Shown piece after piece: positions 3,410-14,044 of a DNA stretch of 64,000 bases; within the stretch, counting starts at the first letter, position 1, and every line of letters starts with the position of its first letter. The notes beneath the pieces are model-generated. The model saw only the letters and a list, made by a program, of their open reading frames with translations, searched no databases and was not told where the DNA came from. The DNA is taken from the NCBI RefSeq assembly GCF_003096095.1, contig NZ_CP015453.1:2542001-2606000 (forward strand), in the 5' to 3' direction. Origin of the DNA: Dietzia psychralcaliphila. Lineage in GTDB: Bacteria > Actinomycetota > Actinomycetes > Mycobacteriales > Mycobacteriaceae. The position numbers and the translations under genes are program-made.

Positions 3410-3745
3410 GCGTGTGGGTCCTCCGGGTGGGGTGAGCGCGGCGGATGTGGCCGCACGGAAAGCACCAGTGTAATCCGCATCCGGCGGCGGAGCGCGGGCG
3501 CGACTCACAGGGCCGGGCGGGGCAGGTCCTGGGCCTCCCCAGCGCCGCCCCGGGACCGACCCTGAGCCGACCCAGGGCCGATCAGGGCGGTGACGCCGGA
3601 TGGCGTGTTACGGCGGCGCCGTTCGCATTTTTCCAATCGCAACCACCCGGTAACGGACCGACACGCAGCGGTAACGCCGCGGGCGTGTACTCGCTGCCAT
3701 GTCATCGGAACCCCTCCGGTGACCCCTTCCCCCGAGGAGTCCACA
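3410..3745. promoter_or_regulatory. Divergent intergenic region between mfd and the Nit1C-like cluster
   Basis: This 336-bp gene-free stretch must hold the promoters for mfd (leftward) and for the eight-gene cluster (rightward). I see no convincing -35/-10 pair. The clearest structure is a direct repeat GGTAACG at 3649-3655 and 3670-3676, spaced 21 bp start to start, about two helical turns, with a complementary GTTAC nearby at about 3607. These could be activator or repressor half-sites. They do not match the GlnR consensus well enough to name it. The ribosome binding site of the first cluster gene, GAGGAG, is at 3734-3739. Confidence 0.4.
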
Positions 3746-4270
3746 GTGCCCGAGTTCGACGCCACCATCACCGAGAACATCGCCACGTCACTCACGGAGA
3801 TCCCCCACCCGTCGCTGCCCAAGGGCACGAACATCTACGGCGGCACCAAGATCTTCCCGGACTACAAGGCCGAGGAGGGCGAGTCGTACTTCACGCTCGT
3901 GCACGGCATCGCGCACGAGTCCTCCGTCTCCTTCGTCGCGGTCCTGCAGGCCACCCGCGCCCTGCGGAAGGGATTCGAGTCGGCCATCTACTTCTACGGG
4001 CCCGGCGCGATCAACTGCCTGGCCACTCGTGGCTTCCCGACCACCGGGGACTCCGGCTTCCCCGGCGAGCAGAACATCAACGAGTCCCTCGAGTCGTTCA
4101 TCTCCGAGGGCGGGACCGTGTTCTGCTGCCGCTTCGGGCTCGGACTTCACGGCGGTCGCGAGGAGGACCTGATCGAGGGCGTGATCCCCGCGCATCCGCT
4201 GGACGTCCAGGACGCCCTGATCCACTACGCCCGTAAGGGCGCGATCATCAACTCCACCTACATGGTCTGA
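3746..4270 (+). CDS. MSMEG_0572/Sll0783-family nitrogen starvation response protein (NitB-like)
   Basis: This 174-residue protein opens the cluster. It matches my recollection of the MSMEG_0572/Sll0783 family, called NitB in Nit1C clusters. The biochemical role is unknown. In Synechocystis, Sll0783 is induced by nitrogen starvation and affects polyhydroxybutyrate storage (literature memory). The sequence is soluble, with no signal peptide or membrane span, and has glycine-rich conserved-looking stretches such as FYGPGAINCLATRGFPTTG and FGLGLHGGREEDLIEGVIPA. I chose GTG 3746 because GAGGAG lies six bases upstream and the protein then begins MPEFDATITENI. The nitrilase gene follows after four bases, so co-translation is likely. 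Confidence 0.85.
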   Translation: MPEFDATITENIATSLTEIPHPSLPKGTNIYGGTKIFPDYKAEEGESYFTLVHGIAHESSVSFVAVLQATRALRKGFESAIYFYGPGAINCLATRGFPTTGDSGFPGEQNINESLESFISEGGTVFCCRFGLGLHGGREEDLIEGVIPAHPLDVQDALIHYARKGAIINSTYMV

Positions 4271-4274
4271 CGCC

Positions 4275-5165
4275 ATGACCACCATCGGATCGGTCGCGGC
4301 CAACTTCACCCGCGACCTCGAGGAGAACTACCGGACCATCGCCCGCTACGCGGAGCTCGCCCGCGAGAGCGGCGTGGACTTCCTGGTCTTTCCCGAGGCG
4401 GCCATCGGAGGTTACCTCTCCAGCCTGGGCAATCATGGGGACACCGTGTCCACCGCCGGCTCACTGCCCCCCGCGATCAGGCTCGACGGCCCCGAGATCG
4501 CGCGCGTGCAGGAGATCGTCGGTGACCTGGTGGTGGCCATCGGGTTCTGTGAGCTCGACGACGACGGGGTGAGCCGCTACAACGCCGCCGCGGTCCTCGA
4601 CGGGCACCGCGTCTACGGCACCTACCGCAAGGTGCACCAGCCCCTCGGGGAGAACATGTCCTACGCGTCGGGCGGCGACTACCGGGTGTTCGACACCCCG
4701 GTCGGGCGGGTGGGCCTGCAGATCTGTTACGACAAGGCCTTCCCGGAGGCCGCGCGCGTCATGGCCCTGCAGGGGGCCGAGATCATCGCCTCCCTGTCCG
4801 CGTGGCCGGCGGCGCGGACCGCGACCGCGGCCAACCTCCAGGAGGACCGCTGGACCTACCGGTTCAACCTCTTCGACTCCGCCCGGGCGCTGGACAACCA
4901 GGTGTTCTGGGTCGCCTCCAACCAGGCGGGGACGTTCGGGTCCCTGCGGTATGTCGGCAACGCCAAGATCGTCGACCCCGGCGGGAACGTCCTGGCCACC
5001 ACCACCCTCGACGAGGGCCTGGCCGTGGCCGAGGTCGACGTGGCGGGGACATTCGCGGCCATGCGCGCCGGGATGTTCCACCTGCGCGACCGACGCCCCG
5101 ACGTGTACGGGTCGCTGGTCGAGGTCAGCGATCCGGCCGACGAGAGGACTCTCGCCAGTGCCTGA
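4275..5165 (+). CDS. Nitrilase, Nit6803/Sll0784 type (catalytic member, NitC-like)
   Basis: Carbon-nitrogen hydrolase superfamily enzyme of 296 residues, the family's usual length. The triad is intact: Glu41 in FLVFPEAAIGG, Lys119 in YGTYRKVHQP and nucleophile Cys151 in VGLQICYDKAFPE. Members hydrolyse nitriles to acids plus ammonia; Nit6803 is the structural reference, and the NitC homologue is needed for growth on cyanide in Pseudomonas fluorescens (literature memory). The natural substrate here is unknown. It sits four bases after the NitB-like gene, and its stop overlaps the next gene's GTG (GTGCCTGA). A paralogue at 9389-10261 in the same operon has lost the active-site residues, so this copy is the likely enzyme. 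Confidence 0.93.
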   Translation: MTTIGSVAANFTRDLEENYRTIARYAELARESGVDFLVFPEAAIGGYLSSLGNHGDTVSTAGSLPPAIRLDGPEIARVQEIVGDLVVAIGFCELDDDGVSRYNAAAVLDGHRVYGTYRKVHQPLGENMSYASGGDYRVFDTPVGRVGLQICYDKAFPEAARVMALQGAEIIASLSAWPAARTATAANLQEDRWTYRFNLFDSARALDNQVFWVASNQAGTFGSLRYVGNAKIVDPGGNVLATTTLDEGLAVAEVDVAGTFAAMRAGMFHLRDRRPDVYGSLVEVSDPADERTLASA

Positions 5166-5550
5166 GATGAGCTTCGCCGTCCGGTGGCCCGACGGGACGG
5201 TTCGGGACTACTACTCCCCCAGCCTGGTGATCCACGACCACCTGACCGTGGGCGAGCGGCTCAGCGTCACCGAGTTCCACCGCCGGGCCACCGACGCGCT
5301 CACCGAGGCCGGCGAGCGGGTCCGCGCCCGATACGGGTTCCTGTGCAGCTCCGCCGCCGACACGGCCGCGCAGGTGGACTCGGCGAGCCGGGCCCACCCC
5401 GGGGCCGCCCTCGTCGAGGTCGTCTCCATGCACCCCCCGCTGCCCTCTGCGTCCCAGCCCTCTGCGTCCCAGCCCTCTGCGTCCCAGCCCTCCGCGTCCC
5501 CACCCCCCGCGCAGGCCTCCCCCGCCCCGGACCCCCAGGAGAACCCATGA
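5158..5550 (+). CDS. MSMEG_0570-family nitrogen starvation response protein with repeat tail
   Basis: A 130-residue cytosolic protein. The first ~95 residues (PEMSFAVRWPDGTVRDYY...) match the small MSMEG_0570 family found only in these clusters, whose function is unknown. The last ~35 residues are a low-complexity Pro/Ser/Ala/Gln tail built from PSASQ repeats, not part of the family as I know it. I chose GTG 5158, which overlaps the nitrilase stop and gives VPEM; ATG 5167 is the alternative. The stop overlaps the flavoprotein ATG (ATGA at 5547-5550), indicating translational coupling. Confidence 0.82.
   Translation: MPEMSFAVRWPDGTVRDYYSPSLVIHDHLTVGERLSVTEFHRRATDALTEAGERVRARYGFLCSSAADTAAQVDSASRAHPGAALVEVVSMHPPLPSASQPSASQPSASQPSASPPPAQASPAPDPQENP
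5443..5502 (+). repeat. 15-bp in-frame minisatellite, four units
   Basis: Three identical copies of CCCTCTGCGTCCCAG and one diverged fourth copy run head to tail and encode the PSASQ pentapeptides at the C-terminus of the MSMEG_0570-like protein. The unit is a multiple of three, so copy-number change would lengthen the tail without a frameshift. Confidence 0.9.
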
Positions 5551-6830
5551 GCACCACGCAGGTCTCCCCCAGCACCCACGTCCCGGTGCTCGTCATCGGC
5601 GGTGGGCAGGCCGGGTTGTCGGTGAGCCACCACCTCGGCCGCGCGGGCGTCGACCACCTCGTGGTGGAGAAGCAGACCGCCGTCCACGCCTGGTCCGACA
5701 CCCGGTGGGATTCGTTCACGCTCGTCACGCCGAACTGGCACTGCCAACTGCCCGGCTACCACTACGAAGGCCCCGACCCCGACGGCTTCATGACCCGCGA
5801 CCAGGTGGTCGAGTGGCTGCACGGGTGGCTCGACACCTTCGACCCGCCGCTCGCCGAGCACACGGCGGCCACCCGGTTGCGACGGACCGGGACGGGTTTC
5901 GAGGTGACTCTCGCCGGCCCGGTCGGCGAGCGGACCGTCACGGCCGACGAGGTGGTCATCGCCACCGGCGGTTACCCGATCCCCGTGATGCCGTCCTACG
6001 CCCAGTTCCTCGATCCGCGCGTTGCGCAGCTCCACTCCGAGCAGTACCGCAACCCCGACCAGCTGGCCGAGGGCGCCGTCCTGGTGGTGGGGTCGGGGCA
6101 GTCCGGCGCGCAGATCGCCGAGGACCTGCACCTGGCCGGGCGCCGGGTCCACCTGGCCGTGGGCAACGCCCCGCGGGTCGCGCGGTTCTACCGGGGCAGG
6201 GACTGCATGACGTGGCTCGCGGACATGGGCCTGTACGACACCCCCGCGCAGCAGTACCCCGGAGGCAAGGCCGCGCAGGAGAAGACCAACCACTACGTCA
6301 CCGGCCGCGACGGCGGCCGGGATGTGGACCTGCGGCGCTTCGCGGCCGAGGGCATGCGGCTGTACGGGACACTGACCGCCGGAGAGGGCACGGAACTGCG
6401 GTTCGACCCCTCACTCACCGAGGCGTTGGACTCCGCAGACCGGGTGTACAACTCGATCTGCGCCGACATCGACCGGCACATCGCAGCGCACGGGATCGAC
6501 GCCCCTCCGGCCTCGAGGTACGAACCGGTATGGGCGCCCGGGGCCGACCCGACGTCACTCGACCTCGCGGCGGAGGGGATCACCACGATCATCTGGGCGA
6601 TCGGCTACCGGCCCGACTACCGCTGGATCGAGGCGAGCGCGTTCGACGGCGCCGGCCACCCCATGCAGACCCGCGGCGTGACGGAGGTCCCCGGCCTGTC
6701 GTTCGTGGGCCTGCCCTGGATGCACACCTGGGGCTCCGGCCGGTTCCTCGGCATCGACCGCGACGCCAGGTACCTCGCCGAGGGCATCATCGCCCGCCGT
6801 CACACCGCTCGAGAGGAACGGGCATCATGA
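5547..6830 (+). CDS. MSMEG_0569-family flavin-dependent oxidoreductase (NitH-like)
   Basis: A 427-residue flavoprotein resembling flavin-containing and Baeyer-Villiger monooxygenases. An N-terminal FAD Rossmann motif VLVIGGGQAGLS lies at about residues 14-26, and a second dinucleotide-binding motif VLVVGSGQSGAQ, presumably for NAD(P)H, at about 173-185. It is the flavin oxidoreductase component of Nit1C clusters. A role in oxidising a nitrile or cyanide-derived intermediate is plausible but unproven. The start overlaps the previous stop by ATGA, and its own stop overlaps the radical SAM ATG the same way. No transmembrane segments were noticed. Confidence 0.88.
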   Translation: MSTTQVSPSTHVPVLVIGGGQAGLSVSHHLGRAGVDHLVVEKQTAVHAWSDTRWDSFTLVTPNWHCQLPGYHYEGPDPDGFMTRDQVVEWLHGWLDTFDPPLAEHTAATRLRRTGTGFEVTLAGPVGERTVTADEVVIATGGYPIPVMPSYAQFLDPRVAQLHSEQYRNPDQLAEGAVLVVGSGQSGAQIAEDLHLAGRRVHLAVGNAPRVARFYRGRDCMTWLADMGLYDTPAQQYPGGKAAQEKTNHYVTGRDGGRDVDLRRFAAEGMRLYGTLTAGEGTELRFDPSLTEALDSADRVYNSICADIDRHIAAHGIDAPPASRYEPVWAPGADPTSLDLAAEGITTIIWAIGYRPDYRWIEASAFDGAGHPMQTRGVTEVPGLSFVGLPWMHTWGSGRFLGIDRDARYLAEGIIARRHTAREERAS

Positions 6831-7903
6831 CCACCTCCACCACCGGGGCGTCCACCTCGACCCGGGTCGACCTCGCACTGCTCGGCATCCGGGGCACCCC
6901 TCCGCTGCACCGCAGCGGGGGCGCGGGCCCCAGCGACGACGGCCACCTGGTCGTCTCCGGTCGCGACGCGGCGATCCCCCGCAACGCCGACAGCCCCTTC
7001 GTCTTCGACGGCGACCGGGTCCTGCGCGACGGCGTCGACACCGGCCTGGAGATCTCCGCGATCGGCCGGCCCCGGTTCTACGACCGCCAGACCTCCGACG
7101 GGGTGCCCTACGAGAAGATCGCGCGGCTCCACGGCCGGGGCGTCCTGGCCACGACGGTGGTGCAGACCTGCATCCGCTACCGTCGCGACGAGCGCTGCCG
7201 GTTCTGTTCGATCGAGGAGTCGCTGCGCGCCGGCACGACCGTTCCGGTCAAGCAGCCGGAGCAGCTGGCCGAGGTCGCCCGCGCCGCCGTGGACCTCGAC
7301 GGGATCACCCAGATGGTCATGACCACCGGGACCTCGGCGGGCCCCGACCGCGGAGCCGCCCACCTGGCCCGCTGCGTGCGTGCCGTCAAGAAGGCGGTCC
7401 CCGAACTGCCGATCCAGGTCCAGTGCGAACCGCCGGCCGACCTGGCGGTCCTCACCGATCTGCGCGACGCCGGTGCCGACGCGATCGGCATCCACGTCGA
7501 GTCGCTCGACGAGGACGCCCGCCGACGGTGGATGCCCGGCAAGTCGACGGTGCCCCTCGCGGAGTACCGGGCCGCGTGGGACGAGGCGGTCCGCGTGTTC
7601 GGGCGCAACCAGGTCTCGACCTACCTGCTCGTGGGCCTCGGCGAGGACCCCGACGAGATGATCGCCGGGGCCAGGGAGCTGGCCGAGTCGGGGGTCTACC
7701 CGTTCATCGTCCCGTACCGCCCCCAGTCGGGGACGCTGGCCGTCGACGTCGACGGGGCCCCCGCCCCGGAACAGCGGCGCGTGGAGTACATCAGCCGCGA
7801 GGTGGGCGCGCACCTGGAGCGCATCGGGATGGCCGGGGCCGACCAGCGCGCCGGCTGCGCGGCGTGCGGGGCGTGCAGCGTGCTGCAGTCGGTCGGGGGC
7901 TGA
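6827..7903 (+). CDS. MSMEG_0568-family radical SAM protein (NitD-like)
   Basis: A 358-residue radical S-adenosylmethionine enzyme. The cysteines that should bind the 4Fe-4S cluster are Cys115, Cys124 and Cys127 in CIRYRRDERCRFC. This is a C-x8-C-x2-C spacing rather than the common C-x3-C-x2-C. A cysteine-rich C-terminus (GCAACGACS) may hold a second metal or cluster. It belongs to the Nit1C radical SAM family; its reaction is not known to me. ATGA overlap with the preceding flavoprotein gene supports the start. The next gene begins four bases after the stop. Confidence 0.88.
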   Translation: MTTSTTGASTSTRVDLALLGIRGTPPLHRSGGAGPSDDGHLVVSGRDAAIPRNADSPFVFDGDRVLRDGVDTGLEISAIGRPRFYDRQTSDGVPYEKIARLHGRGVLATTVVQTCIRYRRDERCRFCSIEESLRAGTTVPVKQPEQLAEVARAAVDLDGITQMVMTTGTSAGPDRGAAHLARCVRAVKKAVPELPIQVQCEPPADLAVLTDLRDAGADAIGIHVESLDEDARRRWMPGKSTVPLAEYRAAWDEAVRVFGRNQVSTYLLVGLGEDPDEMIAGARELAESGVYPFIVPYRPQSGTLAVDVDGAPAPEQRRVEYISREVGAHLERIGMAGADQRAGCAACGACSVLQSVGG

Positions 7904-7907
7904 GTCG

Positions 7908-9389
7908 ATGCTCGACATCCGCGATCTCACCGGTCCCGCCCTTCCGGGCCGGACCCGCACGGCGGAGTCAGTCCTGGGGGCGGAGTCCGTCCTGGGCTCA
8001 GCCGCCGCGTCCCTCCTCGCCGGCGGGCGCCGCGCAGAGCCGGGCCCGGTGGTGCGGATCGCCGAGGATCCACGTACCGTCGCCGCCTACCACCGGCTCC
8101 GGCACGAGGAGTTCGTGCTCCGCCAGGGACTGTTCCCGGGCAGCGACCTCGACGACGTGGACGACGACACCCGCACGGTGGTGCTCGTCTCCGTCGCCCC
8201 CGACGGCACCGTTCTCGGCGGTGTCCGGATCGCCCCGTGCGCGCAGCCGGACATCGGGTGGTGGTCCGGCAGCCGACTCGTCGTGGCCGACACGGCCCAC
8301 TCCGGCGGCATCGGCCCGGCCCTGATCCGCTCCGCCTGCGCGCACGTGGAGGCCCGGGGTGTGCTGCGTTTCGACGCCACCGTCCAGGACCGCTACTCGC
8401 CGCTGTTCACCTCCCTGGGGTGGGTCGACACCGGGGCGGGGCCGGTCGTCGCCGGTCGCGCCCACCGCCGGATGCGGTGGCCGGTCGACCGGATCCAACG
8501 CCTGGCGGACTCCACCAAGTCCCTGCTGTCCGGACTCCTGTCCCCGTTCGCCGGGCAGTCCGGGGGCCTCGGTGCGACCGGGTTCCGCGGTGACGACGGG
8601 GCGCCGGTTCCGGGCACCGATCTCGTCGCGGCGTGCGACGCCATCCTGCCCTCGATGGTCGAGCGTGACCCCGAGTGGGCAGGCTGGTGCTCCGTCCTGG
8701 TGAACATCGGCGACCTCTCGGCCATGGGCGCCGACCCGGTGGGCTTGCTGGACGCCGTGGCCGCGCCGACCACCTCCCATCTCGAGAGGATCGTCAGGGG
8801 CGTGGCCGCGGCCGCCGCGGCCTGGGGTGTCCCCGTTCTCGGGGGCCACACCCAGGTCGGCGTGCCGTCGGCGCTGTCGGTGACCGCGCTCGGGCGGACC
8901 ACGCGGCCGGTGCCCGCCGGGGGCGGCCGCGTGGGCCATACCCTGTCACTGACCGCGGACCTCGGCGGATCCTGGCGACCGGGCTACCACGAGCGGCAGT
9001 GGGACTCCTCCAGCAGCCGGACCTCCGAGGAGCTGCGCCTGCTGGCCGGACACGTTGCGGAGATCGCCCCCGCCGCGGCCAAGGACGTGAGCATGGCGGG
9101 GATCGTCGGCACGGCGGGAATGCTGGCCGAGGCCTCCGGGACCGGTGCCCAACTCGACGTCGCGGCGATTCCGCGCCCCCAGGGGGCGAGCGTCGGCGCC
9201 TGGCTCACCTGCTTCCCGGGCTACGCCATGCTCACCGCAGACCGGGGCCCCGCCCCGGAACCCGCGGGGCCGGCGGTCAGCGCGGCGTGCGGGCGCCTCA
9301 CCGCCGAGCCCGGGGTGAGGCTGCGGTGGCCCGACGGCGAGGTGACCGTCGCCGTCGCCGGCACCGTCACCGGGTTCGGCCCCGCCTGA
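7908..9389 (+). CDS. MSMEG_0567-family GNAT acetyltransferase / AIR synthase-like fusion (NitE-NitF)
   Basis: A two-domain protein of 493 residues. Residues ~45-190 form a GNAT-type N-acetyltransferase domain (VVRIAEDPRTVAAYHRLRHE ... GIGPALIRSACAH). Residues ~200-490 resemble the PurM/ThiL/HypE AIR-synthase superfamily, which binds ATP (GDLSAMGADPVGLLDAVAAP, VPVLGGHTQVGVPSALSVTA). In cyanobacterial and proteobacterial Nit1C clusters these are separate proteins (Sll0786 and Sll0787); the fusion is typical of the actinobacterial version. The combination suggests acylation plus ATP-dependent activation of a small molecule, but the substrate is unknown. The stop overlaps the next ATG (TGATG at 9387-9391). 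Confidence 0.88.
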   Translation: MLDIRDLTGPALPGRTRTAESVLGAESVLGSAAASLLAGGRRAEPGPVVRIAEDPRTVAAYHRLRHEEFVLRQGLFPGSDLDDVDDDTRTVVLVSVAPDGTVLGGVRIAPCAQPDIGWWSGSRLVVADTAHSGGIGPALIRSACAHVEARGVLRFDATVQDRYSPLFTSLGWVDTGAGPVVAGRAHRRMRWPVDRIQRLADSTKSLLSGLLSPFAGQSGGLGATGFRGDDGAPVPGTDLVAACDAILPSMVERDPEWAGWCSVLVNIGDLSAMGADPVGLLDAVAAPTTSHLERIVRGVAAAAAAWGVPVLGGHTQVGVPSALSVTALGRTTRPVPAGGGRVGHTLSLTADLGGSWRPGYHERQWDSSSSRTSEELRLLAGHVAEIAPAAAKDVSMAGIVGTAGMLAEASGTGAQLDVAAIPRPQGASVGAWLTCFPGYAMLTADRGPAPEPAGPAVSAACGRLTAEPGVRLRWPDGEVTVAVAGTVTGFGPA

Positions 9390-10261
9390 TGCCCACGGTG
9401 ACCCTGGGGGCGCTGGCCGGGAACTTCGGAAGGGACCTCCCGCGATGCGTCGACAAGGCCGTCGGCATCATCGACGCCGCTGCCCGCGACGGCGTGGATC
9501 TCCTCGTCTTCCCCCATGCGACCCTCGGCGGCTACCTCGGCGCCCTGCGTGACCCCTCCCCCGAGACCCTCCCGCCGGCGCTCGATCCCGACGGCCCGGA
9601 ACTGGCCGCCATCGCCGCCGCGGCGGGAGACATGACCCTCTGCATCGGGTACACCGAGGCCGTCGACGGGACGCGGTACAACACCGCGGTCTGCCTCAGC
9701 GGCGACGGAGTCCTCGGGGTCCACAGGAAGGTCCATCAACCCGTGGACGAGGGGATCCACTACGGCGCGGGGGACTCGTTCCGCGCATTCGACACCCCGG
9801 TCGGACGTCTGGGGATGCTCATCGACTACGACAAGACCTTCCCCGAGTCGGCGCGGTCACTCGCCCTCGACGGCGCCCAGGTGGTGGCCGCGCTGTCGGC
9901 CTGGCCCGCCAGTGTGACCGACCGCGCCGCCCGGCTCCCCTCGGACCGCCAGTCCCGACTGTTCGATCTCTACGACTGCGCACGAGCCGCCGAGAACCAG
10001 GTGTTCGTGGTGGCCTCCAACCAGACCGGCGTCATGGGGTCCCTCCGGTTCCTCGGCCAGGCCAAAGTCGTGGGGCCCGGTGGCGAGGTCCTCGCGGCCA
10101 CCCGGTCCAAGGGCGGCCTCGCCAGGGCCGAGGTCGACATCGACACCGAGCTCGCGCGCTCGAGAAGAGTCCTCGACCACCTCCGGGAGCGCCGGCCCGA
10201 GACCTACGCGACGGAACCGACACGGTCACCAGCACCGAGAGGGGGTCCACCGTGCGCATAG
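9389..10261 (+). CDS. Nitrilase-fold paralogue lacking catalytic Glu and Cys (probable pseudoenzyme)
   Basis: A 290-residue protein aligning along its length with the nitrilase at 4275-5165. It keeps the fold landmarks (GNFGRDL, VHRKVHQPVDEG, VASNQTGVMGSLRFLGQAKV). The triad is broken: Glu is replaced by His43 (LLVFPHATLGG) and the nucleophile Cys by Asp146 (LGMLIDYDKTFPE, versus VGLQICYDKAFPE in the active copy); only Lys114 remains. The codons are plainly CAT and GAC and the frame is uninterrupted, so this is not a decayed pseudogene. It starts by TGATG overlap with the GNAT-AIR gene, and its TAG overlaps the next gene's GTG region. It may be a regulatory or structural partner of the active nitrilase, or a ligand-binding protein. 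Confidence 0.85.
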   Translation: MPTVTLGALAGNFGRDLPRCVDKAVGIIDAAARDGVDLLVFPHATLGGYLGALRDPSPETLPPALDPDGPELAAIAAAAGDMTLCIGYTEAVDGTRYNTAVCLSGDGVLGVHRKVHQPVDEGIHYGAGDSFRAFDTPVGRLGMLIDYDKTFPESARSLALDGAQVVAALSAWPASVTDRAARLPSDRQSRLFDLYDCARAAENQVFVVASNQTGVMGSLRFLGQAKVVGPGGEVLAATRSKGGLARAEVDIDTELARSRRVLDHLRERRPETYATEPTRSPAPRGGPPCA

Positions 10262-11355
10262 CCCTGCTCACCTACTCGACCCGACCGCGCGGGGGCGTGG
10301 TCCACACCCTGCACCTGGCAGAGGCACTCGCGCGGGCCGGAGCCGCCGTGACGGTGTACTCACTGGCCCGCGGCGCGGACGCCGGCTTCTTTCGCGAGGT
10401 CGACCCCGCCGTCACGGTCCGTCTCGCGCCCTTCCCGGATCGTGCCGGGGAGTCCGTCACGGACCGGATCGTGAGGTCGATCGAGACGCTGCGGGCTTTC
10501 GTTGATCCGGACGGGTTCGACATCGTCCACGCCCAGGACTGCATCAGCGCCAACGCCGTCGACCGGTGCATCCGCACGATCCACCATCTCGACGACTTCA
10601 CCACCCCCGTGCTGGTGGACTGTCACGAGAAGGCGATCGCCTCTCCCTACGCCCACGTGTGCGTCTCCCGGGCCGTCGCCTCCGAGGTGCAGCAGGGATG
10701 GGGGCTGGCCCCCACGGTGATCCCCAACGGCGTGGACCACGCCCGCTTCGCCGAGGCCGCCGGACCGGGCACGGCGCCCGCCTCCGCCCGCGAGCGGTGG
10801 CGCCGTGAACTCTTTCCGTACGTGCTGGCGGTGGGCGGGATCGAACCGCGAAAGGGCAGCATCGACCTCCTCGAGGCGTTCGCGCTGACGCGCCGTACCC
10901 GTCCGGATCTTTCCCTGGTCTTCGCCGGCGGTGAGACCCTCTTCGACTACCGCGACTACCGGGCACGGTTCGACCGCCGGTGCGCGGAGCTGGGGATCGA
11001 CCCCGTCGTCCTCGGCGTTGTCGCGGAGGACGACCTTCCGAGCCTGGTCGCCGCGTGCGACGTCTTCGCGTTCCCCTCCACCAAGGAGGGCTTCGGGTTG
11101 GCGGCGATGGAGGCACTCGCCGCGGGCCGGCCGGTGGTCGCGCGCGAACTGCCGATCCTCAGGGAGGTGTTCGGCTCGTCCGTGGAGTACGCCGCCTCGA
11201 TCCCGGAGCTCGCCGAGCGCCTGGAGTCGGCACTCGTCGCCGATCCCGCGCGGGCCCGGGACGGCAGGGCCCTGGCCGCCTCGCTCACCTGGGACGCCGC
11301 GGCAGTGGCCCACCTGGAGTTCTACGCCGAGCATCCCCGCGGCCGTCTCCCATAG
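10252..11355 (+). CDS. MSMEG_0565-family GT4 glycosyltransferase
   Basis: A 367-residue GT-B glycosyltransferase, last gene of the nitrilase cluster. The N-terminus has the donor/acceptor loop motif YSTRPRGGVVHTLHLAEAL. The C-terminal half carries the retaining GT4 signature FAFPSTKEGFGLAAMEALAAG with its EX7E-type glutamates, and a VGGIEPRKGS nucleotide-sugar loop. GTG 10252 overlaps the preceding stop by 10 bases. This family occurs only in the actinobacterial form of the cluster as I know it, which suggests a glycosylated product or carrier in those organisms. Donor and acceptor cannot be told from sequence. Confidence 0.87.
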   Translation: MRIALLTYSTRPRGGVVHTLHLAEALARAGAAVTVYSLARGADAGFFREVDPAVTVRLAPFPDRAGESVTDRIVRSIETLRAFVDPDGFDIVHAQDCISANAVDRCIRTIHHLDDFTTPVLVDCHEKAIASPYAHVCVSRAVASEVQQGWGLAPTVIPNGVDHARFAEAAGPGTAPASARERWRRELFPYVLAVGGIEPRKGSIDLLEAFALTRRTRPDLSLVFAGGETLFDYRDYRARFDRRCAELGIDPVVLGVVAEDDLPSLVAACDVFAFPSTKEGFGLAAMEALAAGRPVVARELPILREVFGSSVEYAASIPELAERLESALVADPARARDGRALAASLTWDAAAVAHLEFYAEHPRGRLP

Positions 11356-12107: not shown

Positions 12108-12172
12108 CGGGGGACACCTCGGACGGGAGTGACCTCTGACGAGCGGGGACCGTCGGCCGGCCCACGGCGCGC

Positions 12173-12226
12173 CCCACCCACCGGCACCGCCCCACCCACC
12201 GGCACCGCCCCACCCACCGGCACCGC
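12173..12226 (+). repeat. 18-bp tandem repeat, three perfect units
   Basis: Three identical copies of CCCACCCACCGGCACCGC lie in the leader of the GT2 gene, between the VKOR stop and the GGGAG ribosome binding site. An upstream in-frame GTG at 12129 would translate them as APPTGT repeats, but the Shine-Dalgarno position favours the start downstream of them. Confidence 0.9.
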
Positions 12227-12248
12227 CCCGCGACCTGAAGGGAGCCCG

Positions 12249-12953
12249 ATGCGCTTCGTGGGAATCGATGTGGTGATCCCGGCCCACGACGAGCAGGAAC
12301 TGCTCCCCTGGTGCCTGGACTCTCTCGCGGAGTGCGCCGACGCCACCCCGGTGCCGGTGACCGTGACCGTGGTGCTCGATTCCTGCACCGATTCCTCCGC
12401 GGACGTCGCACTCGGCCGGGCCCGGATCGTGCGGACCGACGTGCGCAACGTCGGCGCCGCGCGGGCCGTGGGGTTCGACTCCCTCCCCCGCCCCGCCTCG
12501 ACCCCGCAGGTCGGACAACGCTGGTACGCCACCACCGACGCCGACTCCCGAGTGCCCCGCACCTGGCTGGTCGACCAGCTGGCCCGGGCGCTCGACGGCG
12601 CCGACGTGGTCGCCGGGCTGGTCGAGGTGACCGACTGGTCCGGGTGGGACCCGGCCACGCGGGTGCGCTACCTCGAGGGCTACCAGGCCGGTTCCGACCA
12701 CCGGCACATCCACGGCGCCAACATCGGCATCTCGGCCCGCGCCTACCGCTCCCTGGGCGGTTTCGAGCCATTGCCGGTCCACGAGGACGTGCGCCTGGTG
12801 CACCGCGCCGAGGAGGCCGGTCTGGCGATCGCCTGGTCCACGGCGGCGCCCGTGACCACCTCCGCCCGTCGGCACTCCCGCACCCCCGGTGGATTCGCGG
12901 GGCACCTGGCTCTGACGGAGCTGGAAGACACCCGTAGCGAGGTCACCCCATGA
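12249..12953 (+). CDS. Family 2 glycosyltransferase
   Basis: A 234-residue GT-A fold transferase. It opens with the GT2 motif VDVVIPAHDEQELLPWCLDSL, has the metal-binding acidic motif TTDADSRVP near residue 98, and an acceptor-site HEDVRLVHR (ED-type) near 178. No membrane segment is seen. I chose ATG 12249 because GGGAG sits just upstream; GTG 12129 would add a repetitive Pro-rich leader. It is the first of four overlapping genes (GT2, acyl-CoA dehydrogenase-like, PIG-L deacetylase, methyltransferase), which suggests sequential modification of one sugar-containing metabolite or lipid. Its stop overlaps the next ATG by ATGA. Confidence 0.85.
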   Translation: MRFVGIDVVIPAHDEQELLPWCLDSLAECADATPVPVTVTVVLDSCTDSSADVALGRARIVRTDVRNVGAARAVGFDSLPRPASTPQVGQRWYATTDADSRVPRTWLVDQLARALDGADVVAGLVEVTDWSGWDPATRVRYLEGYQAGSDHRHIHGANIGISARAYRSLGGFEPLPVHEDVRLVHRAEEAGLAIAWSTAAPVTTSARRHSRTPGGFAGHLALTELEDTRSEVTP

Positions 12954-14044
12954 GCACGGCAGATCGCCCCCGCGGCGCCGACCTCGCCCGCGAATGGCTC
13001 CGCGCGGGGAGCGCCGACCTGCCACTGCCCGGCCACGGGGCCACCCGCGCCCGCTGGTCCGGGCTCACCGAGATGTGCGCCCACGACGTCTCGGCGGGCC
13101 GCCTGGTCGAGGCCCACGCCGACGCTGATGCGATCCTCGCCGAGATCGAGGGCACCCGCGTTGCGCCCGGCGAGTTCTGGGGCGTGTGGGCCGCCGAGCC
13201 GCCGATGCCACGGGTCACCGCCCGGCGCTCCGTGGCCGGCGGCAAGGGGTGGGTGCTCGACGGGGTCAAGGCCTGGTGCTCCGGTGCGGCGGTGTGCACG
13301 CACGCCCTGGTCACGGCCCTCGACGACGACGAGCCGCGCCTGTTCGCAGTGGACCTGCGTCACCCCGGTGTGTCAGCCCGGGCAGACGGCTGGGCGCACC
13401 CGGGGATGGCGGAGACCGGCACCACCGCCGTGGAGTTCCGGGATGTGCCGGCGCGCACGGTCGGCGACCGGCGCTCATACCTGGACCGGCCCGGGTTCTG
13501 GCACGGGGGTATCGGGGTGGCGGCCTGCTGGCTGGGCGCCGGGATCGCCGTGGCCCGGCCGCTCCTGGCCCGCTCGAGCAGGCCCGACGCGGACGAACAC
13601 GCGCTGGCCCACCTCGGCGCGGTCGACGTGGCGCTCGGCGGGGCGGTGTGGGCGCTCGACGCCGCCGCGCGTGAGATCGACGGCGCGGGCTCGGGCACCG
13701 GATCGGACCCGGCTACCGCCTCAGCAGCCGACCCGGCCGATGCCGCCGACCCGGCCGATGCCTCCGACCCGGTCGATGCCTCCGACCCGGTCGCTGTCAC
13801 CGGCGCCGATCTCGTCGCCGCTCGTCACCGGGCCGTCCGAGTCCGGGCGATCGTGGAGGCCGCGGTCGACGACACCCTCCGCCGGGTCGGACGGGCACTG
13901 GGTGCCGGCCCGCTCGCGATGGACCCGCACCACGCACAGGCCGTCCTCGACGCGAGCGTGTACATCCGGCAGTTCCACGCCGAACGCGATCTGGTCGGCC
14001 TCGGCCGGACCGCCCGCACCTACGGCGGTTGGGCCCGTGGGTGA
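12950..14044 (+). CDS. Acyl-CoA dehydrogenase-like flavoprotein
   Basis: A 364-residue protein with the middle beta-domain pattern of acyl-CoA dehydrogenases (GKGWVLDGVKAWCSGAAVCTHALV) and a C-terminal helical domain ending in the QFHAERDLVGLGRTARTYGGW type motif. I cannot place a catalytic base with confidence, so the activity may differ from fatty-acid beta-oxidation. An alanine/aspartate/proline-rich stretch made of an 18-bp repeat interrupts the C-terminal domain around residues 260-282. ATGA overlap joins it to the GT2 gene. The operon context suggests oxidation of an acyl group or amine on a glycosylated intermediate. Confidence 0.78.
   Translation: MSTADRPRGADLAREWLRAGSADLPLPGHGATRARWSGLTEMCAHDVSAGRLVEAHADADAILAEIEGTRVAPGEFWGVWAAEPPMPRVTARRSVAGGKGWVLDGVKAWCSGAAVCTHALVTALDDDEPRLFAVDLRHPGVSARADGWAHPGMAETGTTAVEFRDVPARTVGDRRSYLDRPGFWHGGIGVAACWLGAGIAVARPLLARSSRPDADEHALAHLGAVDVALGGAVWALDAAAREIDGAGSGTGSDPATASAADPADAADPADASDPVDASDPVAVTGADLVAARHRAVRVRAIVEAAVDDTLRRVGRALGAGPLAMDPHHAQAVLDASVYIRQFHAERDLVGLGRTARTYGGWARG
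13727..13795 (+). repeat. 18-bp in-frame minisatellite in the acyl-CoA dehydrogenase-like gene
   Basis: Two identical units GCCGACCCGGCCGATGCC, then a TCC-starting variant and a partial fourth copy, encode ADPADA/SDPVDA. The unit length keeps frame, so copy number can vary without breaking the protein. Confidence 0.88.

Follow-up and report, generated by a model that had tools for sequence, protein, structure and literature searches.

A conserved nitrilase-superfamily twin lacking the catalytic cysteine in an actinobacterial nitrogen-starvation gene cluster

A second CN-hydrolase gene in a gpr-type cluster

Gene clusters of the Nit1C and gpr types range from cyanobacteria to mycobacteria. According to the accessible part of the report on the Mycobacterium smegmatis gpr cluster (PMC6039565), its eight genes, MSMEG_0565-0572, are strongly induced by GlnR under nitrogen starvation, a peroxide phenotype could not be pinned on individual gpr genes, and MSMEG_0566 is termed a putative aliphatic amidase. 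Binding of GlnR upstream of MSMEG_0572 has been demonstrated (PMC4222082, PMC3662644; both accessible in part). As far as these accessible parts go, the literature on the mycobacterial cluster does not settle what its genes do, and it labels the gene at the position considered here an amidase despite orthologs without the amidase nucleophile. We analyzed a cluster of this kind in a 64,000-nucleotide stretch of the Dietzia psychralcaliphila genome (contig NZ_CP015453.1, positions 2,542,001 to 2,606,000), which we call the window. The cluster contains two CN-hydrolase genes: one at 4275-5165, referred to with its orthologs as the active copy, and one at 9389-10261, referred to with its orthologs as the twin. 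The twins are a conserved family within the nitrilase superfamily that lacks the catalytic Cys. This is an old actinobacterial family and not a one-off wreck, and the twin probably does a different job from the active copy of the same nitrogen-starvation cluster.

The window operon matches the family models for MSMEG_0572 (TIGR04044), MSMEG_0569 (TIGR04046), MSMEG_0567 (TIGR04050 and TIGR04045), and MSMEG_0565 (TIGR04047), all above cut-off; a radical SAM gene recognized by PF04055, a small open reading frame (ORF), and the two CN-hydrolase genes fill the remaining positions. The Nit1C label that a reading of the sequence alone had given to this operon fits its gene content but does not extend to the nitrilases, since the twin and the active copy score only 40.3 and 34.0 bits against the Nit6803 family model TIGR04048 (cut-off, 502.6), which we take to represent the nitrilase of classical Nit1C clusters. 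The genes follow the same order as in Mycolicibacterium litorale (L104). By position, that is, by synteny and not by M. smegmatis sequence, the twin corresponds to MSMEG_0566 and the active copy to MSMEG_0571. MSMEG_0566 has been called an amidase, yet none of the 33 sampled twins at its position has the catalytic Cys. Nit1C clusters, as far as they are described in the accessible part of PMC1199592, share the radical SAM, GNAT, AIRS-like, and flavoprotein genes and the small ORF with the window cluster. They differ in having a single subfamily-1 nitrilase, whereas both window genes belong to another CN-hydrolase branch, and one of them lacks Cys and Glu. The window cluster also adds a glycosyltransferase relative to Nit1C; the same source notes one in Burkholderia and Rubrivivax. 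In partly accessible literature, the NitC nitrilase of Pseudomonas is linked to cyanide assimilation.

Translation of the twin gave 290 amino acids with no internal stop. The protein belongs to the nitrilase (CN hydrolase) superfamily by its CN_hydrolase domain and alpha-beta-beta-alpha fold, and it is 49% identical to the active copy of the window (blastp). It departs from the Glu-Lys-Cys (E-K-C) triad of catalytically active superfamily members at two positions: Glu41 of the active copy (GAG, 4395-4397) aligns with His43 (CAT), and Cys151 (TGT, 4725-4727) aligns with Asp146 (GAC). The catalytic Lys (Lys119 in the active copy and Lys114 in the twin, AAG in both) and the second conserved Glu (Glu126 and Glu121, GAG in both) are retained. 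Translation and aligned columns therefore confirm the two losses and the retained Lys described in the sequence-only reading. Its description of a normal gene also stands: the ORF is intact, the GC content at third codon positions (0.883) resembles that of three operon genes (0.943, 0.919, and 0.894), and the ATG at 9389 shares one base with the TGA of the upstream gene. It speaks of a TGC codon for the Cys site, which in the active copy reads TGT. At its other end, the twin's stop codon (10259-10261) sits within the next gene, which begins at 10252.

Pseudoenzymes, catalytically dead paralogs retained beside an active one, are a known general class, and the window shares with such pairs the joint retention of an active and an inactive paralog. 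A literature search, with most subscription papers outside its reach, turned up neither a Cys-less nitrilase twin nor an active-inactive pair of this kind in the nitrilase superfamily. The Pyrococcus horikoshii amidase PH0642 (6ypa, 1j31) is 28% identical to the twin and has Cys146 (assigned from the 6ypa title and alignments) where the twin has Asp. The Medicago N-carbamoylputrescine amidohydrolase (MtCPA, 5h8i), which is 24% identical, likewise has Cys at the site of the twin's Asp. The triad of MtCPA is Glu48-Lys121-Cys158, as given in the accessible part of PMC4812014. The twin family is a naturally occurring example of the capacities of the nitrilase fold in the absence of its thiol.

Distribution, descent, and selection of the twin

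Among 394 genomes of the class, which supply the unbiased count, 49 had a match at E <= 1e-40, and the 48 loci fetched together with the window contained 33 twins and 48 active copies. In this class sample, Asp replaces the Cys in all 33 twins, all of them retain Lys, and none has an intact E-K-C triad. Asp146, Lys114, and Glu121 are the residues that do not change in these 33 copies. Residues at the Glu site are Asp (24 twins), Gly (7), Gln (1), and His (1, the window twin itself), and His43 is therefore incidental. The active copies keep Lys and Cys in 48/48 and Glu in all 47 in which the column is present; that of L044 lacks the Glu region at a contig end.

A scan of species genomes returned 507 relatives, the best 80 of which were kept as named loci. 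Asp occupies the Cys site in 80/80 of these twins, a count that is biased because one of the two seeds contains the Asp; Lys and the second Glu are present in 80/80 as well. The Glu site is Asp in 74 and His in 6 (Dietzia natronolimnaea, Smaragdicoccus, a metagenome-assembled genome of Nocardiaceae, and three Williamsia). Within this best 80 of 507, the closest named relative of the window twin is that of D. natronolimnaea, at 92% identity. Given that His is a minority state in both surveys (1/33 and 6/80), the earlier suggestion of a new chemistry using His and Asp does not hold for the family. The active copy is intact in 71 of the 72 loci in which it could be read. The remaining one, in Williamsia L157, is damaged in its 5' half, and its Glu and Lys sites are unreadable. 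In the other 8 of the 80 loci, the active copy is either cut off by a contig edge (L083, L088, L090, L097, L106, and L154) or located elsewhere in the genome (L121 and L159). The L083 contig is labeled as an Acidobacteriaceae bacterium and carries a Gordonia/Dietzia-like cluster with a twin 79% identical to that of the window; perhaps the contig was misbinned or the cluster was transferred recently.

In a phylum sample of 396 genomes, 9 matched at E <= 1e-60, and other classes supplied five of these. The other-class loci include a full pair, consisting of a twin with Asp at both the Cys and Glu sites (L180) and an active copy (L186), as well as single-copy clusters with an intact E-K-C triad (L181 and L182). 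Four further E-K-C relatives (L183, L184, L187, and L190) stand alone, with no other cluster gene found in the fetched stretches.

Phylogenetic trees recovered the twins as one clade, a point that the sequence-only reading had proposed to check. Twins and active copies separate with one change each in a 96-row tree (support, 85 and 87). An 81-row tree, drawn with a midpoint root for display only, has a twin clade (100/95) and an active clade (96/90); the other-class single-copy cluster genes join the active copies (98/86), and a separate group holds the stand-alone relatives (100/99). Asp at the Cys site, a retained Lys, membership in the single clade, and a location inside the cluster go together among the twins, with L062 as the exception in location. 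This lone twin has no cluster gene around it, and its genome, G028, has no close family member of either the active copy or the flavoprotein.

The simplest reading of this pattern is one duplication within the cluster, followed by Cys-to-Asp and Glu-to-Asp changes on the twin stem and by later replacement of the Asp at the Glu site with Gly, His, or Gln. Sixteen class-sample genomes have an active copy and no twin, and 14 of them come from two genera (g56 and g72) of one family; under a single early duplication, these 14 would have lost the twin. The twins are an old paralog family whose age probably matches, roughly, that of the cluster in its actinobacterial form.

The median ratio of nonsynonymous to synonymous substitution rates (dN/dS) is 0.057 for the twin and 0.059 for the active copy over 27 disjoint close pairs, from which L044, L124, L125, and L157 had been excluded beforehand. 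These values replace a first run (3938/5356 pairs; medians, 0.25 and 0.35) that included saturated pairs. The twin is thus under strong purifying selection, similar to that on the active copy. Its substrate pocket is mostly unchanged, with the Lys, the second Glu, a Tyr, a Trp, and the D-Y-D-K elbow in place. The absence of intact triads, the separate clade, and a dN/dS like that of the active copy strongly support the earlier proposal that the gene is selected for a role independent of the Cys mechanism, and the 33/33 orthologs with Asp, together with the dN/dS, rule out a local recent loss or error. Alignments were made of 31 of the 33 class-sample twins (A1) and 36 of the 48 active copies (A2). 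Two helix residues, Gln188 and Ala201, had been considered as twin-specific interface signatures and were weakened by the other-class relatives. Six other-class E-K-C relatives have Gln at the 188 site in 6/6 and Ala (2) or Ile or Val (4) at the 201 site; Gln188 is probably ancestral because all six carry it.

Possible partners and roles of the twin

Without its nucleophile, the twin would be unable to run the thiol-acyl mechanism, and we therefore infer that it is a non-hydrolytic subunit. The reading that we tentatively favor, as a possible one, is a non-thiol subunit that retains the pocket and binds a pathway intermediate handled with the flavoprotein step. Such a twin would keep the old pocket and bind a nitrile-, amide-, or amine-type intermediate. 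It would bind, protect, or hand over a compound processed at the flavin-dependent oxidoreductase step, and it might do so as a nitrilase-type dimer, either with itself or with the active copy. The Cys-containing active copy would carry out hydrolysis. Twins with Asp for Cys and a largely intact pocket could then serve as a handle for revealing the intermediate.

The flavoprotein was brought into view by co-occurrence and by rates of change. A TIGR04046 flavoprotein above the cut-off is present in 31/33 twin-bearing and 2/16 twin-less class-sample genomes (Fisher, 1.9e-8). This raw table is strong but leaves kinship unaccounted for, and it is not proof because 14/16 twin-less genomes come from two genera of one family. 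Rate covariation was computed over the 79 of 95 loci having all seven genes, with near-copies removed, and in subsets of 27, 46, and 33. The rank partial correlation between twin and flavoprotein is 0.39 over the 79 loci and 0.42, 0.36, and 0.34 in the subsets; that between twin and active copy is -0.03, 0.09, 0.12, and 0.09, respectively. The corresponding Pearson coefficients over the 79 loci are 0.37 and -0.13. Together, co-occurrence and rate covariation lean toward the flavoprotein over the active nitrilase as the twin's link. An MSMEG_0569-type flavoprotein was not found for two twin-bearing clusters (L060 of G022, where the genome was searched, and L197 of G738, where the locus was searched). 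In both, the place between active copy and twin is taken by a different FAD-dependent oxidoreductase (L060, 8360-9847; L197, 7704-9140), whose best Pfam match is FAD_binding_3 or DAO.

Several observations weigh against a link to the flavoprotein step or against a retained pocket. A phylogeny-aware test of the twin-flavoprotein association, made on independent pairs, had only 3 usable contrasts and was not significant. Rate covariation can reflect shared laxity instead of contact, and the Pearson coefficient between twin and radical SAM protein, 0.41, is slightly above that for the flavoprotein. The flavoprotein occurs without the twin in G038, G230, and the other-class clusters L191 and L193, and the lone twin of G028 has neither cluster nor flavoprotein. 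Kitasatospora arboriphila and Rhodococcoides trifolii keep the twin in the cluster and the active copy and flavoprotein at another locus. Between window-type and Rhodococcus-type clusters, identity to the window is 54-59% for the flavoprotein, 57-60% for the active copy, and 69-72% for the twin. The flavoprotein therefore diverges between cluster types as much as the active copy does, and the twin is compatible with different flavoproteins as well; this divergence and the slightly higher radical SAM coefficient lowered our confidence. The pocket is also less constrained in the twin than in the active copy (entropy, 0.26 versus 0.10, with L044 excluded), and the other-class twin L180 apparently, judged by eye, has Asp at the second Glu site.

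Some arrangements of these genes are unusual. The Williamsia clusters L115, L117, and L123 have an active copy and no flavoprotein, and a second active copy adjoins a flavoprotein elsewhere (L160-L162). The K. arboriphila twin (L121) clusters with a Williamsia twin in the trees, which suggests that its cluster may have entered a streptomycete by horizontal transfer.

We consider it somewhat unlikely that the twin is instead an obligate structural or allosteric partner that stabilizes or regulates the active subunit in mixed alpha-beta-beta-alpha dimers or filaments. Twin and active copy occur together in 32 of the 33 twin-bearing class-sample genomes, the exception being G028, and L121 and L159 have an active copy even though it lies outside the cluster. 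The two genes are adjacent in 9 class-sample loci, with gaps of -10 to +24 bases based on starts picked by script, and nitrilases have a common dimer architecture in which the active-site mouth of MtCPA is partly walled by the dimer mate (PMC4812014, accessible part). An obligate partnership is harder to reconcile with the near-zero correlation of rates, with the 16 genomes that carry an active copy and no twin, with active copies that diverge more between cluster types than the twins do, and with the relaxation in the twin of C-terminal columns that are invariant in the active copy (Arg273 and Arg274). The pairing with the active nitrilase suggested in the sequence-only reading has co-occurrence and adjacency on its side but no specific support: the rates show no particular link between twin and active copy, and in two genomes the genes are split.

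A new enzyme built on Asp146, Lys114, and Glu121, in most copies with Asp, His, or Gln at site 43, that performs acid-base chemistry or uses Asp as a nucleophile would explain why these three residues are constant in 33 and 80 twins while the Glu site varies, and it agrees with the tight conservation of the pocket and a dN/dS as in the active enzyme. We regard it as unlikely. Site 43 is not needed, because it is Gly in 7/33 copies; L180 apparently departs from Glu121; a buried Lys-Asp pair could have no more than a structural role; and conserved pockets are also found in ligand-binding pseudoenzymes. Quite unlikely, in our view, is a Cys-free site of the same three residues that arose once, early in Actinomycetota, and does a new non-hydrolytic step on the flavoprotein product. 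Such a pocket, in which most lineages have Asp, His, or Gln at site 43, would be carboxylate-rich and possibly metal-binding. It might, for example, trap or dehydrate a reactive nitrogen intermediate or pass it on to the active hydrolase. The retained fold, Lys, and second Glu would also suit a twin that is still a CN hydrolase by way of another nucleophile or a water-mediated mechanism; this is very improbable, as the nucleophile and the Glu are both replaced in 33/33 sampled copies and alignment A1 has a single invariant Cys (Cys85), with Cys102 nearly invariant. The chance that the gene is redundant, decaying, or a sequencing or assembly error is negligible. Nothing beyond the lost residues favors it, the twin is present and under selection across many families, and the Williamsia gene that seems less well preserved is the in-cluster active copy (dN/dS in the pair L117/L123 of 0.189, versus 0.021 for the twin, besides the damage in L157).

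The surrounding gene cluster

The cluster genes, the codons at the sites compared, and two candidate regulatory sequences are listed in Table 1. The GTG start of the operon's first gene, which has no Pfam match, and the starts of the flavoprotein gene (5547) and the radical SAM gene (6827) were assigned in this analysis. The most constant side of the gene order is the glycosyltransferase gene, which follows the twin in 31/33 class-sample and 80/80 species-scan loci.

Table 1. Features of the cluster in the window
Feature	Position	Strand	Remarks
MSMEG_0572/Sll0783 family nitrogen starvation response protein	3746..4270	+	First gene of the operon; TIGR04044, 251.1 bits (cut-off 109.85) on 3590-4270
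Active copy (MSMEG_0571 position)	4275..5165	+	296-aa CN-hydrolase; intact Glu41-Lys119-Glu126-Cys151
Small MSMEG_0570-type ORF	5167..5550	+	Between active copy and flavoprotein; by position and inter-locus similarity; no Pfam match
MSMEG_0569 family flavin-dependent oxidoreductase (flavoprotein)	5547..6830	+	TIGR04046, 639.5 bits (cut-off 498.35) on 5535-6830
Radical SAM protein (MSMEG_0568 position)	6827..7903	+	PF04055; no NCBIfam match
MSMEG_0567-type GNAT and AIR-synthase-like fusion	7908..9389	+	TIGR04050, 490.2 (cut-off 312.2); TIGR04045, 74.3 (cut-off 68.45)
Twin (MSMEG_0566 position)	9389..10261	+	290-aa CN-hydrolase fold; Asp146 for Cys, His43 for Glu
His43 codon CAT	9515..9517	+	Catalytic Glu site; mostly Asp in orthologs
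Lys114 codon AAG	9728..9730	+	Catalytic Lys; retained in 33/33 class-sample and 80/80 species-scan twins
Glu121 codon GAG	9749..9751	+	Second conserved Glu; invariant in the 31-row A1 and in 80/80 species-scan twins
Asp146 codon GAC	9824..9826	+	Nucleophilic Cys site; Asp in every twin read
MSMEG_0565 family glycosyltransferase	10252..11355	+	Last gene of the conserved cluster; TIGR04047, 455.9 bits (cut-off 259.85)
Two GlnR-box-like sequences (candidate)	3639..3654 and 3660..3675	+	Upstream of the operon

The two GlnR-box-like sequences have CGGTAAC in common, are spaced 21 bases apart, and lie approximately 75 to 100 bases before the first gene of the operon; D. natronolimnaea (L080) carries the same two. 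A GlnR-like pattern is found upstream of 18/117 loci versus 5/117 in a control stretch, and a loose form of the pattern is not enriched across the window (47 found, 60.8 expected). These candidate boxes are a lead only for GlnR control of the window operon. An early idea that the cluster produces viridisamide found no support.

Three tandem repeats lie in or near the cluster. The C-terminal part of the small MSMEG_0570-type ORF contains a 15-base repeat (5442-5511; 3.9-4.7 copies) that encodes an S-Q-P-S-A repeat. Downstream of the cluster, 18-base repeats occur at 12170-12229, within a frame (12129-12953) that is glycosyltransferase-like below cut-offs, and at 13728-13790, within a frame (12950-14044) that is weakly SfnB-like below the cut-off.

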